From: Chloroflexota bacterium
GTDB lineage: Bacteria; Chloroflexota; Anaerolineae; DTLA01
Assembly (NCBI GenBank): GCA_014874485.1
Contig: JADBJK010000015.1
Span: forward strand, 1 to 48,181
DNA length: 48,181 bases
Direction: 5' to 3'
Shown here: positions 5,804 through 16,023 of the stretch, one piece after another
How positions within the stretch are numbered: the stretch's first letter is position 1
Layout: each line of letters opens with the position of its first letter
The notes under the pieces: model-generated
Database searches by the model: none
The model's input: the letters and a program-made list of their open reading frames with translations, nothing else
Told to the model about the DNA's origin: nothing
Made by a program: the position numbers and the translations under genes

Positions 5804-6892
5804 CTAGAATGGATTGGGAATCTGGAACTGCGGCACCGGCGATACGATGTCCTGGTACGTGATGAGGATCATCACCAGCACCAGCATCACCAGGCCGATC
5901 CAGTGGACGAAGCCTTCCTTGCGCGGGTCCACCCGCTTGCCGCGAACCGCCTCAATGACGATGAACAGGATGCGCCCGCCGTCCAGCGCCGGCAGTGGCA
6001 GCAGGTTGGTCAGCCCCAGCGCCACGCCCAGCACGCCGATGAGCCGCAGGATGGGAAACCACCACCCGGTCTGCGCCGTCTGCGTGGCGGCCGACCCCGT
6101 GATCTGGAAGATGCCCACCGGTCCCACGGGCCGGGCCAGGCTCGGATCCAGCCCCTGGCGCAGCAGGAGCGCCGGCAGGCTCAACGTGAAGGCCAGCGTG
6201 CTCGCCACCTCGCGGGCGCCCAGGTACAGCGCCTCCAGCGGCGGCGAGTACTTCAGCGCGATGCGCGTCGTCTCTTCGGTGATGCCCACCCCCAGAGCGC
6301 CCTGGTACGGCGGGATGGGTATCCGGGGCACCACGCGCACCTGCACGTAGCCCACGCCCCGGCGGATGGTCAGCACGACCTCCTGCCCGGCCTTTTGGCT
6401 CACGTAGCGCGAGAAACTGGCCGCGCTGTCCACCTCTATGCCGTCCATCTGGATGATGACGTCGCCCGCCAGGATGCCCGCGGCCTGCGCCGGCGAGTCG
6501 CTCTCCACGCGCAGCACGACGGCATGCTTCGTCTCGGCCACCGTCGGCCAGCCGCTCATGTAGGCGAAGGCGAAGAACACCGCCGCCATGAGCAGGTTCA
6601 TCAGCGGCCCCGCCGCCAACACGGCCAGCCGCACGCGTTTGCTCTTGTCGGCGAACCCGCCTTCAACGCCCGGTTCGTTCTCGCCGGCCATACGGACAAA
6701 CGCGCCGAACGGGATGGCGTTGATGGTGTATTCCGTTTCGCCGCGCTTGGCCACCCGCACCAGCCTCGGCGGGAACCCAAGCCCGAACTCCTCAACCCGA
6801 ATCTTCGCCAGTTTTGCCGCGACGAAGTGGCCCAACTCGTGGGCGATCATCAGCGCGCTCAAAACCAGCAGTGGCACCACAAACGTCAGCAT
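5804..6892 (-). CDS. rseP: Site-2-type zinc metalloprotease RseP
   Basis: Intramembrane protease that cuts transmembrane anti-sigma factors or signal-peptide remnants within the membrane. The first membrane helix carries HELGH at residues 18-22, the HExxH zinc site. A PDZ domain follows at about 115-200 (GDVIIQMDGIEVDSA). The distal membrane motif NLLPLPALDGGRIL, which supplies the third zinc ligand (the Asp of LDG), lies near residue 305. At 362 residues it is the usual length for single-PDZ Gram-positive-type RseP. A consensus -10 box lies upstream at 6943-6948. No anti-sigma substrate gene is visible nearby. Confidence 0.95.
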   Translation of the reverse strand: MLTFVVPLLVLSALMIAHELGHFVAAKLAKIRVEEFGLGFPPRLVRVAKRGETEYTINAIPFGAFVRMAGENEPGVEGGFADKSKRVRLAVLAAGPLMNLLMAAVFFAFAYMSGWPTVAETKHAVVLRVESDSPAQAAGILAGDVIIQMDGIEVDSAASFSRYVSQKAGQEVVLTIRRGVGYVQVRVVPRIPIPPYQGALGVGITEETTRIALKYSPPLEALYLGAREVASTLAFTLSLPALLLRQGLDPSLARPVGPVGIFQITGSAATQTAQTGWWFPILRLIGVLGVALGLTNLLPLPALDGGRILFIVIEAVRGKRVDPRKEGFVHWIGLVMLVLVMILITYQDIVSPVPQFQIPNPF

Positions 6893-7086: not shown

Positions 7087-7905
7087 CTACGCCCGCAGGA
7101 TGGTCCCGAAACTCTCGTCGCCCAGGAGCGCGTCCCGCAGGCGGCCGGGAATCTCGCCCGAGAAGAAGTGCACGCGCACGTGCGGCTGCGACTCCACGAG
7201 CCGCGCCAGGGTCTCCACCTTCGCGAGCATCCCGCCCGTAACGTCCGTGCCGTGGGAGCCGCCGAGCCCGCCCGCGCCCTGCGCCAGCGTCGCCGGCGTG
7301 AGCACCGGAATCCGACGGCTGTCGGGATAGCGGATCGGGTCCGATTCGTACACACCGTCCACGATACCCGCCATGAGGATGCGGGCAGGCGGAATGCGCC
7401 GCGCCAGGTACAAGAAGATGTCCTCGGTGGAGATGATGGCCGTCCCCTGGCCGTCGTCAAACGCCACATCGCCGTACACCAGCGGCACAAGGTCATGCGC
7501 CAGCGCGGCCTCAATCGGCCCCGTCGCCATCTCCACCACCGCCCCCGCGCGCTTCCGCGCCGACGCCGAGGGCTGGAATGAGATGGCAGGCACGCCCGCT
7601 TCCAGACAGGCGTCCACAACCAGGCGATTCAGGCGGGCGGCCGCTGCGCTGGTCTCGGCCAGGCCGCGCCAGTCGTCCTGCCCCGCAAGGCCCGTGTGCA
7701 CGCCGTAGCGCCGCGCCGCGAAGTGCCCGAACGACCCGCTGCCGTGGCCCAGCACCACCCGCAGGCGCGGAGCCGCATCCAGCGCCGCCCGCACCTCCCG
7801 CGCCAGGCGGCGGATGACGTCCAGGCGCGGCGTGGCCTCTCGCGTCTTGTCCGTGATGAGCGAGCCGCCCAGTTTCACGAACACCGTCTCGCACTCCGCG
7901 CTCAT
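7087..7905 (-). CDS. Isopentenyl phosphate kinase
   Basis: Amino-acid-kinase-fold enzyme that phosphorylates isopentenyl phosphate to isopentenyl diphosphate, the last step of the archaeal mevalonate routes. The 272 residues start MSAECETVFVKLGGSLITDK, where K11 is in the phosphate-binding motif. They contain GHGSGSFGHF with H61 in the position of the catalytic His typical of this family, then GIVDGVYESDP and DVTGGMLAKVE. The ATG at 7905 overlaps the stop codon of the upstream gene as ATGA, so it is coupled to the aconitase-X small subunit. The related acetylglutamate and fosfomycin kinases lack the SFGH signature. The family is clear; the pathway rests on the neighbours. Confidence 0.9.
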   Translation of the reverse strand: MSAECETVFVKLGGSLITDKTREATPRLDVIRRLAREVRAALDAAPRLRVVLGHGSGSFGHFAARRYGVHTGLAGQDDWRGLAETSAAAARLNRLVVDACLEAGVPAISFQPSASARKRAGAVVEMATGPIEAALAHDLVPLVYGDVAFDDGQGTAIISTEDIFLYLARRIPPARILMAGIVDGVYESDPIRYPDSRRIPVLTPATLAQGAGGLGGSHGTDVTGGMLAKVETLARLVESQPHVRVHFFSGEIPGRLRDALLGDESFGTILRA

Positions 7906-8324
7906 TCCTTCTGCGCCCCCCGTCCCGCGCGGGCAACGCGGCGCACCGTAACCCACTCGCCGTCAATGGTAACCTCGTCGCCCGTGCGTATCTGCGTGAT
8001 GTCTATTCCGTCCACCATCGGGATGTTGGAGATGATGGCCCCGACGGCCACAATGGCCTCGCTGCTGGCGTTGATGATGCCCAGCGGAGCCAGCCCCTTA
8101 TACGCCAACCTGTACAGGACGTAGGAACCCACCGTGCTCCCCTTGCCCGTGGGGAACACGAGAATCTTGCCCGCCACCGATTGCCCTCGCAGGGGATGCC
8201 CCGCCTCCACCACGACGCCGGTCTCGGCATCCACGCCGCCGAGGAAGCCAATCGGCTCCGGCGAGACGAGCGCCTCGCCGTGGACCGTGCCCGCCTTGAT
8301 GACGCGCCCGCGCAATCTCAGCAC
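7902..8324 (-). CDS. Aconitase-X small (swivel) subunit, probable phosphomevalonate dehydratase
   Basis: DUF126-type swivel domain that pairs with the aconitase-X catalytic subunit. Motifs are VIKAGTVHGEALVSPEPIGF near the N-terminus and GKGSTVGSYVLYRL with the conserved active-site Ser region. I chose the GTG at 8324: an excellent GGAGGAGGGG precedes it at proper spacing, and it gives a normal 140-residue protein. The ATG at 8375 would overlap the large-subunit gene by 58 bases. With the GTG start the overlap with the large-subunit stop is 7 bases. In archaea, two-gene aconitase-X converts mevalonate 5-phosphate to trans-anhydromevalonate phosphate; the bacterial alternative is cis-3-hydroxyproline dehydration. 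Confidence 0.85.
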   Translation of the reverse strand: MLRLRGRVIKAGTVHGEALVSPEPIGFLGGVDAETGVVVEAGHPLRGQSVAGKILVFPTGKGSTVGSYVLYRLAYKGLAPLGIINASSEAIVAVGAIISNIPMVDGIDITQIRTGDEVTIDGEWVTVRRVARAGRGAQKE

Positions 8325-9562
8325 GCGCCCCTCCTCCGCGGCGGCCAGCACCCTCGCACCGCCGCATCCAGGCACTCGCCCAGCGTCCCAAGCCGCACCT
8401 GCAAGCCCGAATGCGACGGCGCGTAGAAGGCGGCCTTCGCCGAGTTCGTCGCCATCGTCTTCACGCCCAGCGCCTCCACCGGAGCCACCACCAGGCAGGT
8501 GTCGCTGACCACGTGGCCGCCCGCGTGCTCAATCGTTTGCACCCAGCCTGCTGCCTCGGCCCGCCGCCGCGTCTCGCGGGATGTCGTGATCCACAGCAGG
8601 CTCCGCACCCGCTTGCCCGCCAGGAACCGCGCCGCATCCCGCAACTCCTCCAGCGACGCATGGGGGCAGCCGATGCTCACGAAGTCAATGCGCTCCAACG
8701 GGCTGCTCAGGCGCGCGTACCCCTCGTCCAGCGAGTCAATCGTCAGTTCCTGGGCGTCGGGCCGCACGATGTCATCCAATTCCGATTCGGGCGTCATCCC
8801 CTGCACGTGGAACAGCGCCACCGCACCCGCCGCGGCCATGGCCGCCGCCAGTGCCCGCAGGTGCAGGGCTGCGGTGATGCCCTCGGCAGTCCAGGCCGCG
8901 CCGTCCGCGACGAAGTACGGGATGCCCTTACCCACGCGCCGCCCCACCTCGTAGCCCAGGACGCCGAAATCCACCTCGGTTCGCACCGGGCAGGCCACGC
9001 GCACGATGTGGGTGGCGCGACGGTTCTCGGTCAGGTGCAGGCCATAGCGGGCCGTGCGTCCGCAGATGGCCGCTGCCAGCGCGCTCGGCCCTCCTTCGCG
9101 GTTCGTCCGCGCCCCCAGGATGGAATTGGCGAAGGCCACCGCCGACGACTCGCTCCAGGCCAGGTGCGACCCCAGGCCCGGCACCTTGCCGATGAGGTAC
9201 GGCGTGCAGGTGCAGGTCATCTCAATCCCCATCCGCGCGTAGGCGTCCAGCACCTCCATCTGGCGGCGTGCGAATTCCTCCGGCAGGCCCAGCGTCTGCC
9301 ACTGCTCCAAGTCCATACCCGCCGGGTTCAGCATGGTGGGCACGCGCACCCGCGCCCCCTCCCGCGCCCATTCCTGCAGGAACAGCAGGCCCGCCTCGCC
9401 TAGGTTCTTGTAACTCACGCCCGCCACCTGGACGCTCTCCACCGGCACCAAATCCGCCGCGCCGTAGATCTTGCCCAGCGCGGTAACGATCTCCATCGCC
9501 TTTTGCACGGCCGGGCCTTCCTTGCCCGCCAGCATGTGCTTCTCTTGCCGCGTGAGGTACAT
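8318..9562 (-). CDS. Aconitase-X large (catalytic) subunit, probable phosphomevalonate dehydratase
   Basis: DUF521-type Fe-S dehydratase subunit of 414 residues starting MYLTRQEKHMLAGKEG, the usual family opening. Cysteines likely to hold the cluster occur in MTCTCTPYLIGKVPG, in the VACPVRTEVDFG segment and in SIGCPHASLEEL. The central AFANSILGARTNREGGPSAL block is highly characteristic. An in-frame GTG at 9568 sits at better spacing from the AGGAG site, so the true start may be two codons earlier. It is first in an operon with the swivel subunit and isopentenyl phosphate kinase, which argues for phosphomevalonate dehydratase rather than hydroxyproline dehydratase. Confidence 0.87.
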   Translation of the reverse strand: MYLTRQEKHMLAGKEGPAVQKAMEIVTALGKIYGAADLVPVESVQVAGVSYKNLGEAGLLFLQEWAREGARVRVPTMLNPAGMDLEQWQTLGLPEEFARRQMEVLDAYARMGIEMTCTCTPYLIGKVPGLGSHLAWSESSAVAFANSILGARTNREGGPSALAAAICGRTARYGLHLTENRRATHIVRVACPVRTEVDFGVLGYEVGRRVGKGIPYFVADGAAWTAEGITAALHLRALAAAMAAAGAVALFHVQGMTPESELDDIVRPDAQELTIDSLDEGYARLSSPLERIDFVSIGCPHASLEELRDAARFLAGKRVRSLLWITTSRETRRRAEAAGWVQTIEHAGGHVVSDTCLVVAPVEALGVKTMATNSAKAAFYAPSHSGLQVRLGTLGECLDAAVRGCWPPRRRGAC

Positions 9563-9568
9563 GCCCAC

Positions 9569-9874
9569 AGTTACTCCTGTCCCGAATGGCGGCCCTGCGC
9601 CGCCGGGCCCCATAATATCACACCGCCCCAGTTTTGCAACCGGCGGGCGGGTTCCATGGACACCGATTCAGGGGTTCCGTCCGCGCGGGTTCGCGGTTCT
9701 CCCCCATTGTCATGCAGAGCGAAGCGAAGTATCTCGGTTTGCGAGATTCTTCGGCACTCCGCGCCCTCGCAATGACAACCCCTGCCTGTCATCACCTCGC
9801 AGGTGCGTCGCACGTGCATGACAGGCTCATGGGATTCTTCGGCGCTGCGTGCCCGCGCATGACGGTTGCCCGCT
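9569..9874. repeat. Intergenic region with TGTCAT-ended elements
   Basis: This divergent gap holds no gene I can support. It contains one complete element at 9708-9777 (TGTCATGCAGAG to CAATGACA). After it come a half copy of the P1 hairpin (AGGTGCGTCGCACGTG, near 9801) and a truncated element reaching the ATGACG near 9860. The trpD-like promoter follows directly. Confidence 0.7.
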
Positions 9875-13990: not shown

Positions 13991-14638
13991 CTATTCTTCC
14001 TCGTCGTCGTTGAAGATCACGCGCACCTCGGCCACGTCCCACAGCGGCTCCAGGCGCTCGCGAATCTCCTGCTCAATGTTGTTGGCGAACTGGTGATCCC
14101 GCGACAGGTCCACCCACACGGTAATGACGCCGTTGTTCACGTCGGTCTTCTTGACGACGTGGGTCTTGACGATGTCCAGGCCCGTGAGCGGGTTCATCAC
14201 GTGGCGCAGGCGCTTCTCCACCACCTCCACGGTCGTCGGCTCGCGGTCTTCCACCAGGCCGTGCTTCTCCTCGTAGTTGCGGATGGCGGCGCGGAGCGTG
14301 TCCACCGCCAGCACCGAGCAGTGCACCTTGACCGCAGGTAGCCCGCCCAGTTCCTCGGCGGCGGCCTTCCAACTGATCTTGCGGGCCTCGTCCAGCGTCT
14401 TGCCCTTCGCCAGTTCGGTGATGATGGACCCCGTGGCGATGTTGGACGCGCAACCGTAGGACTCAAACTTGATGTCCTTGATGGTCTTGGTCTCCTCGTC
14501 CACCTTCAGGTACAGGGTTACCATATCCCCGCAGGCGGGGCTGCCCTCGGTGGCCTTGGCGTCGTAGTCCTCCAATCGGCCCACGTTGCGCGGGTTCTTG
14601 AAGTGCTCAATCACTTTTTCGCTGTACGGAATCGGCAT
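13991..14638 (-). CDS. IscU-type Fe-S scaffold fused to a DUF59 (MIP18-like) domain
   Basis: A 215-residue fusion. Residues 1-125 are an IscU scaffold with all cluster ligands: C36 and D38 in GSPACGDM, C63 in YGCASNIA, and H106/C107 in VKVHCSVLAVDTLRAAI. The chaperone-binding LPPVK of the E. coli protein reads LPAVK. Residues 136-210 match the DUF59 / Mrp N-terminal fold (RLRHVMNPLTGLDIVKTHVV), a domain used in Fe-S maturation factors, but the usual CP pair is RDHQFANN here. It follows the IscS-like gene after 88 bases containing a hairpin. The normal bacterial IscU is about 130 residues, so the fusion is notable. Confidence 0.88.
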   Translation of the reverse strand: MPIPYSEKVIEHFKNPRNVGRLEDYDAKATEGSPACGDMVTLYLKVDEETKTIKDIKFESYGCASNIATGSIITELAKGKTLDEARKISWKAAAEELGGLPAVKVHCSVLAVDTLRAAIRNYEEKHGLVEDREPTTVEVVEKRLRHVMNPLTGLDIVKTHVVKKTDVNNGVITVWVDLSRDHQFANNIEQEIRERLEPLWDVAEVRVIFNDDEEE

Positions 14639-14677
14639 AAGTTCTATCCCTCCAAAGTTTTCGCCATTGGCTATACG

Positions 14678-14707
14678 CCATTAGCCTTTGGCCCTTCGCT
14701 AATGGCC
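14678..14707. repeat. Intercistronic inverted repeat
   Basis: GCCATTAGC (14678-14686) and GCTAATGGC (14699-14707) form a 9-bp stem with a 12-base loop between the iscS-like and iscU-like genes. No T-run follows, so a terminator is unlikely. An mRNA-stability or processing hairpin is possible. Confidence 0.5.
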
Positions 14708-14726
14708 AGAGGCCAACGGCTATCGG

Positions 14727-15899
14727 CTACTTTTCATCCTTACCCAGCGGGCTGATGCGACGCAGGGTTTCAATGACTTCCGCTGTGGCTTCTATCACGC
14801 GGTCCACTTCCTCCACGGTGTTGTAACGGCTCAGCGAGTAACGGATGGAGCCGTGGGCCAGTTCGTGGGTCTTGCCCATGGCCATCAGCACGTAACTCGG
14901 CTCCAGCGAGCGGCTGAAGCAGGCCGAGCCCGTTACCACGGCGATGCCCATCATGTCCAGGTGGAGCAGCGTGGACTCACCCTCGGCGTAGTGGAACGAG
15001 ACGTTGACATTGCCCGGCAGGCGGCGGTAGCGCGGCCCGTTGAGTTCCGTCTTGGGGATGCGCGCCAGGAGGCCGTCAATCAGGCGGTCGCGCAGGCTGG
15101 AGATGTACTCCACCTGCGTGGCGCTGGTCATCTCCACGGCCTTGGCGAACCCCACGGCACCTGGCACGTTCTCCACGCCGCCCCGCATGTTGAACTCCAT
15201 GAACCCGCCGTGCATCCACTTGGCGATGGGCGTCCCCTCGCGCACGTACAGCGCGCCGATGCCCTTGGGCCCGTGAATCAGGTGCGCCGTGATGGTTACC
15301 AGGTCGGCGGGCGTCTCGGCCAGGTTCAGCGGGACCTTGGTGAACGTGTGCGACGCGTCGGTATGAAACGCCACGCCCCGCTCCTTGACAATCGCCGCGA
15401 TGGCGTCAATGTCCTGAATCGTGCCCACCTCTTCGTTGGCGTGCTGGATGGAGACGAGGAACGTGTCGTCGGTGATGCTCTCGCGCAACTGGTCCAGGTC
15501 CACGAACCCCTCGCCGTCCACGTCCAGGTAGGTAACCCGCACGCCTTCTTTCTCCAGAGCCTGGGCGGTGTCCAGCACCGACCGGGACTCAATCTTGGAG
15601 ATGATGAGGTGGTTCTTCTTGCCGCGGAAGGCGCGCGCCATGCCCTTGAGCGCCCAGTTGTTGGATTCGGTCTCGCCCGACGTGAAGATGACTTCTTCGG
15701 GTTTGGCCGCGCCCAGGGCCTGGGCGATGGTGACGCGGGCGGCATCCAGCGCCTCGCGGACCTCAATCCCGGGCGAGTGGCTGAACTGCGACGACGCCAC
15801 CGCGTACTTCTCGGTGAAGAAAGGGAGCATGGCTTCCACGACGGCCGGGTCCACCCGCGTCGTCGCTGCGTTATCCATGTAGATGATTTCGTTCTGCAT
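14727..15899 (-). CDS. IscS-like protein lacking the PLP lysine
   Basis: A 390-residue aminotransferase-fold protein aligning end to end with cysteine desulfurase IscS. The active cysteine is kept (C327 in TGSACFSRSLEPSYVL), as is the PLP-stacking region Asp (D181). But the Schiff-base lysine (K206 of E. coli, in SGHKIYGPKG) is Leu207 in TAHLIHGPKG. The PLP-contacting His104 is Ser105 (IESRSVLD), Gln183 is His184, and Asn155 is Glu156. Desulfurase activity is therefore unlikely. Archaeoglobus fulgidus IscS also lacks this lysine and is thought to donate a Cys ligand to an IscU-bound cluster. It is first in the operon; the promoter and operator lie at 16024-16084. Confidence 0.92.
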   Translation of the reverse strand: MQNEIIYMDNAATTRVDPAVVEAMLPFFTEKYAVASSQFSHSPGIEVREALDAARVTIAQALGAAKPEEVIFTSGETESNNWALKGMARAFRGKKNHLIISKIESRSVLDTAQALEKEGVRVTYLDVDGEGFVDLDQLRESITDDTFLVSIQHANEEVGTIQDIDAIAAIVKERGVAFHTDASHTFTKVPLNLAETPADLVTITAHLIHGPKGIGALYVREGTPIAKWMHGGFMEFNMRGGVENVPGAVGFAKAVEMTSATQVEYISSLRDRLIDGLLARIPKTELNGPRYRRLPGNVNVSFHYAEGESTLLHLDMMGIAVVTGSACFSRSLEPSYVLMAMGKTHELAHGSIRYSLSRYNTVEEVDRVIEATAEVIETLRRISPLGKDEK

Positions 15900-16023
15900 C
15901 CTACACTTCCCTTGCAAGGATTCGGTTCGGCAGGAGCGGCGCGTTTGGCAGGAACCGATGCCCACTGTGTTGGGCCGCGCGCGCCGCTTCTACCATCTGT
16001 ATTCTATTCCATGCAAGCGCTGC

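Follow-up and report, generated by a model that had tools for sequence, protein, structure and literature searches.

Gene organization of the locus

The window analyzed here is a 48,181-nucleotide stretch of DNA from a Chloroflexota metagenome-assembled genome (MAG; 3.74 Mb in 122 contigs, 95.7% complete, 3% contamination). On the minus strand, positions 7087-9562 are occupied by three overlapping genes, which code for the two subunits of a split aconitase X (AcnX) and for isopentenyl phosphate kinase (IPK) (Table 1). The large and small subunit genes overlap by 7 nt (8318-8324) and the small subunit and IPK genes by 4 nt, ATGA (7902-7905), just as the first-pass annotation of this DNA had described. 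The three genes probably constitute one translational unit of an archaeal-type mevalonate pathway. Comparison within the genus gave dN/dS values of 0.09-0.11 for the AcnX large subunit, 0.09 for the small one and 0.20 for IPK, which indicates that these are maintained coding genes.

Table 1. Coordinates of genes and signals at the locus and of the single-chain AcnX genes
Feature	Position	Strand	Details
AcnX large subunit (putative phosphomevalonate dehydratase, domains 1-3)	8318..9562	-	ATG at 9562, stop at 8318, 414 aa
Shine-Dalgarno-like AGGAG for AcnX large subunit	about 9574-9578	-	
AcnX small (swivel) subunit	7902..8324	-	GTG start at 8324, stop at 7902, 140 aa
Shine-Dalgarno-like GGAGGAGGGG	8328-8337	-	ahead of GTG of AcnX small subunit
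IPK	7087..7905	-	ATG at 7905, stop at 7087, 272 aa
Promoter-like site TTGCAA-16-TATTAT, extended TG	9612..9639	-	5' of the three-gene unit; consensus scan alone, 9/12, weak
Single-chain AcnX of family f8	L202:7315-9129	+	
Single-chain AcnX of family f8	L203:5520-7310	-	
Single-chain AcnX of family f8	L233-L243		

Two observations concern the surroundings of the locus. A gene for an M50 protease (RseP-like, sequence judged by eye) comes after IPK both in the window (5804-6892) and in a relative (L045:8334-9368), so the order large subunit, small subunit, IPK, RseP is kept between two families. Genes resembling those for IscU-/IscS-type Fe-S cluster assembly (by eye) lie at 13991-15965, about 4-6 kb from the putative Fe-S dehydratase.

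The AcnX pair as a putative phosphomevalonate dehydratase

The identification of a split AcnX pair with IPK, made initially from the sequence alone, was borne out by Pfam and NCBIfam matches and by PDB relatives. The large subunit matches the Pfam AcnX family (502 bits, E 1e-150) and the small subunit the Pfam swivel domain (E 7e-34). Their best PDB relatives are the two chains of the Thermococcus kodakarensis dehydratase (TkAcnX), 7cnr_A (E 5e-107) and 7cnr_B (E 3e-40), respectively.

We then considered which residues bind the cluster and mevalonate 5-phosphate in the structure of the Thermococcus enzyme (PMC8184944). Of these, the three Cys ligands have been mutation-tested in the Aeropyrum enzyme (PMC10040528). 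All 18 landmark residues of phosphomevalonate dehydratase (PMDh) are kept in the window, 14/14 in the large and 4/4 in the small subunit. They include the [4Fe-4S] ligands C110, C283 and C342 (Tk numbering) and all of the mevalonate-5-phosphate contacts, namely G48, V49, S50, N53, N79, E129, S130, S131, K361 and Y365 of the large subunit and S62, T63, V64 and L27 of the small one. In six other Chloroflexota AcnX large subunits the G-V-S motif is missing, and the C283 position is taken by Ser, Thr or Ala. Type I is represented in this comparison by the 7d2r double mutant (S449C/C510V), whose Cys at the C283 position was introduced by engineering. The AcnX tree places the window protein in a Chloroflexota clade (99% SH-aLRT, 32 rows) among archaeal dehydratases and apart from type I/IIa AcnX. 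Residues and tree together support the assignment of the pair to phosphomevalonate dehydratase (AcnX type IIb). As a [4Fe-4S] enzyme of this kind, it would convert (R)-mevalonate 5-phosphate into trans-anhydromevalonate 5-phosphate. The pair shares with the PMDh of Aeropyrum pernix and T. kodakarensis (AcnX type IIb) the two-subunit architecture, the Fe-S ligands, the substrate residues and the linkage to UbiD and IPK seen in archaeal loci. It differs in its bacterial host, and also in having nine extra residues after NPAG (window residues about 84-92), an insert missing from the Thermococcus enzyme.

The only AcnX equivalog in NCBIfam is cis-3-hydroxyproline dehydratase, and the window protein does match it. 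However, the score of 317 bits is far under the 700-bit cut-off, and the type I landmarks are missing, with Ala at the position of Asp203, Ser at Ile206 and Val at Thr72 (PMC8184944). Moreover, the PMDh ligands C110/C283/C342 are in place, and the tree puts the window gene with archaeal dehydratases and not with other Chloroflexota AcnX. Residues and tree thus contradict a cis-3-hydroxyproline dehydratase; we consider this identity very improbable and rejected it.

IPK and the remaining genes of the archaeal-type route

The kinase scores 169.7 bits against the NCBIfam isopentenyl phosphate kinase model NF040647 (cut-off 120), and its closest solved structures are archaeal IPKs (PDB E 3e-39 and weaker). 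The catalytic His and the AA-kinase motifs are there (SFGH and GTDVTGG), as are, judged by eye, the conserved residues published in Table 2 of PMC3857490. IPK was found in all genomes of the class in our phylum sample.

The first-pass annotation had proposed an anhydromevalonate route in this bacterium and had suggested looking for mevalonate kinase (MVK), HMGR and UbiD/UbiX elsewhere in the genome. All of them were found. HMGR resides on contig C10, and the gene after it, which overlaps it by 4 nt, codes for an archaeal-type HMG-CoA synthase (548 bits). The single UbiD of the genome is part of an MVK-UbiX-UbiD cluster on contig C74. In the UbiD tree it is placed in a 99% clade among archaeal enzymes adjoining AcnX, apart from other Chloroflexota UbiDs, and it belongs to the clade of archaeal anhydromevalonate-phosphate decarboxylase (AMPD). 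As this UbiD is encoded on a contig other than that of AcnX, its pairing with AcnX rests on relatives. One of them (L053) has MVK, UbiD, both AcnX subunits and IPK in one stretch. Four more (L045, L056, L059 and L069) show the arrangement UbiD, large subunit, small subunit, IPK, and in G072, G397, G200 and G232 UbiD, UbiX and the two AcnX subunits occur together. Given the archaeal-clade placement and the joined genes in relatives, the window-genome UbiD is likely an anhydromevalonate phosphate decarboxylase. The linkage to the kinase had been put forward as a functional clue for bacterial two-gene AcnX, and it proved a useful one: among relatives AcnX, UbiD, UbiX, MVK and IPK are linked in differing combinations. 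Two genomes, G361 and G184 (L046; G361:C140, G184:C168), have the AcnX large subunit away from the small one, and in G361 the small subunit adjoins IPK.

HMG-CoA synthase, HMGR, MVK, PMDh, AMPD with UbiX and IPK are thus all encoded in one genome. By gene content the archaeal mevalonate route is complete, with enzyme activities predicted from the genes. The UbiD, encoded together with its UbiX behind mevalonate kinase, would decarboxylate trans-anhydromevalonate 5-phosphate to isopentenyl phosphate, which the adjacent IPK would turn into IPP. No IspG was found in the window's genome, and the MEP pathway was therefore ruled out. Among the five GHMP hits of this genome none reaches the threshold of a phosphomevalonate kinase model. 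One of the five, a GHMP-family protein without an assignment (L013:4989-5981, plus strand, contig C71), stays under all mevalonate-kinase cut-offs; part of the classical route could be present if this protein is phosphomevalonate kinase. A full MEP or classical pathway with no decarboxylase partner would have spoken against the proposal; what we found is a genome without IspG or a recognizable phosphomevalonate kinase and with UbiD.

Genes of archaeal origin in a MAG with some contamination might also stem from an archaeal contig placed in the wrong bin. However, bacterial housekeeping genes flank the locus on both sides within the window. GC content (0.64-0.68) and tetranucleotide composition (r at least 0.975) agree with those of the MVK/UbiD, HMGR and PMD contigs, and the same genes recur in 3/3 genomes of the genus as well as in many families of its class. 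We consequently rejected bin contamination, on the agreement in composition across four contigs and the genus-wide presence, and regard it as extremely unlikely.

A second, ATP-dependent decarboxylase in the same genome

The window's genome also codes for a DMD/PMD-family decarboxylase (L012, contig C68), which passes the curated model. Among solved structures its best relative is the Anaerolinea thermophila enzyme, and it has the PMD-type specificity residues of that PMD, WGARD and KGHERA. Structures 6n0x and 6n0z of the A. thermophila enzyme differ from each other at two positions (N to K, H to M); the protein of the window's genome has Ala and His there, and so lacks the Lys of diphosphate-type enzymes. 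Mutagenesis of PMD is reported to change its specificity (Thomas et al. 2019, as cited in PMC9254496). Within the genus, PMD dN/dS is 0.17-0.19. Both routes are present in 3/3 genomes of the genus, where both are kept under purifying selection. The bacterium therefore appears to have an ATP-dependent PMD route in addition to a dehydratase/decarboxylase route, the two converging on one IPK.

This result modifies the initial proposal in two respects. The anhydromevalonate route stands as far as the residues and tree of PMDh, MVK, HMGR and the archaeal-clade UbiD with UbiX are concerned, but it is accompanied by PMD. Likewise, of the genes expected to be absent, IspG and a recognizable phosphomevalonate kinase are indeed missing, whereas an ATP-dependent decarboxylase, one without the diphosphate-type Lys, is present. 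The 'different decarboxylase route' of some Chloroflexota, drawn as a contrast to this bacterium, is thus found here as well. To our knowledge, archaea with the archaeal-type route usually have no PMD/DMD-family decarboxylase. The window's genome departs from that pattern, with PMD as an added route and no part missing. In the alternative pathway described for Roseiflexus castenholzii and Anaerolinea (PMC3857490), PMD converts mevalonate 5-phosphate into isopentenyl phosphate. IPK is common to that pathway and the present genome, and an Anaerolinea-type PMD is here too, but beside PMDh and AMPD.

It might be argued that the genome runs the PMD/IPK route alone, of the haloarchaeal or Roseiflexus type, leaving the AcnX pair as an idle relic or with another substrate. 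The PMD on C68, with its WGARD and KGHERA residues and its presence in 3/3 genomes of the genus, fits such a view. Nevertheless, we find it unlikely: the AcnX subunits evolve at a dN/dS of about 0.1, every dehydratase residue is kept, AcnX is kept along with its UbiD partner, and 16/74 genomes of the same class lack PMD, all 16 with archaeal-type or fused AcnX. Considering gene content, residues, trees, linkage and selection, we hold it very likely that AcnX, IPK and UbiD/UbiX form an archaeal-type route, with reactions inferred, that converges with the PMD route on one IPK. PMD would get to isopentenyl phosphate directly, so that the two routes would meet at the same IPK. The ATP-free route would depend on Fe-S and prenyl-FMN and would be cheaper, possibly oxygen-labile, while the PMD route would cost one more ATP. 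Our guess is that the two serve different conditions. Since PMD is present and under selection, the main flux need not run through the archaeal route.

Distribution in Anaerolineae and a single-chain AcnX

Among 74 genomes of the same class, 48 have PMD only, 16 have PMDh or fused AcnX without PMD, 10 have both and none has neither. Every PMD-less genome has PMDh or fused AcnX (Fisher p 8e-10 for the pattern, n=74, with kinship ignored). IspG was found in 0/74 of these genomes and in 5/5 controls, Chloroflexota of other classes. Archaeal-clade UbiD (at least 50% identity) occurs in exactly 11 of 400 Chloroflexota, nine with PMDh-like AcnX and two with fused AcnX. The archaeal-type route is widespread in the class Anaerolineae, where it is found in many families.

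Family f8 has a single-chain AcnX of 604 aa in which the large part precedes the swivel part, opposite to the order in type I. It is present at full length in 12 f8 genomes. An archaeal-clade UbiD, 61% identical to that of the window's genome, directly precedes it, and an AMPD-type UbiD lies next to it in at least four f8 genomes (G144, G372, G492 and G564). The three Cys, GVS, N79, K361 and Y365 are kept; N53 is not. Both f8 genomes of the phylum sample lack PMD. We infer that the single-chain protein acts as the dehydratase. Its tree placement is uncertain (branch length 2.63), and the AlphaFold model (11 sequences, mean pLDDT 55) was too poor for use.

Origins and possible replacement of the route

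The AcnX tree separates the bacterial dehydratases into two groups that make no single clade, one of them being the window's group. The second group (families f2, f5, f12, f105 and f120) is nested among Asgard sequences (Loki- and Thorarchaeota), and the UbiD tree repeats the split for the members included. A single transfer into Chloroflexota was rejected by the AU test (p 6e-40 for AcnX and 6.5e-6 for UbiD; the p-values are indicative, coming from quick trees with groups named after the tree was seen). The agreement of the two trees points to acquisition on at least two occasions, once from within Asgard archaea.

An archaeal mevalonate pathway has been published for another Chloroflexota bacterium, Candidatus Promineifilum breve (Kanno et al. 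2024, doi 10.1128/aem.01106-24, as cited in PMC13001223, ref. 64). The novelty implied by the first-pass annotation accordingly does not hold, and the window module is not the first of its kind. What differs here is the extent, with many families of the class and at least two origins. In our literature search, we found no report of coexisting routes, the class-wide pattern, two origins or the reversed fusion, parts of which the 2024 paper may contain. The archaeal mevalonate route has been thought nearly exclusive to archaea, and its bacterial presence rested on one characterized example. The dehydratase and decarboxylase of Ca. P. breve were reportedly tested by Kanno and co-workers.

We moderately favor the view that in Anaerolineae the conversion of mevalonate 5-phosphate into isopentenyl phosphate behaves as an interchangeable cassette. 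The archaeal dehydratase and decarboxylase would have been acquired at least twice (once from within Asgard archaea), coexisting with PMD in several families, including this genus, standing in its place in others, and in one family acting through a single-chain dehydratase with its domains in reversed order. If so, a genome that has both routes would represent the standing intermediate that has been postulated for the replacement of one mevalonate pathway by another. The class-wide pattern of either route or both, with no genome devoid of the two, makes the swap of an essential pathway step testable. It would also give bacterial two-gene AcnX a function beyond hydroxyproline breakdown and put bacterial enzymes on offer for an ATP-saving isoprenoid route.

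The second bacterial PMDh group comprises L047-L050, L245 and L246; UbiD and UbiX are linked in L047-L050, and in L047 a PMD gene adjoins UbiD. In addition, a contig labelled candidate division KSB1 (L081) has both AcnX subunits plus an IPK-like gene, placed on a long branch, and could represent contamination or a further bacterial acquisition.
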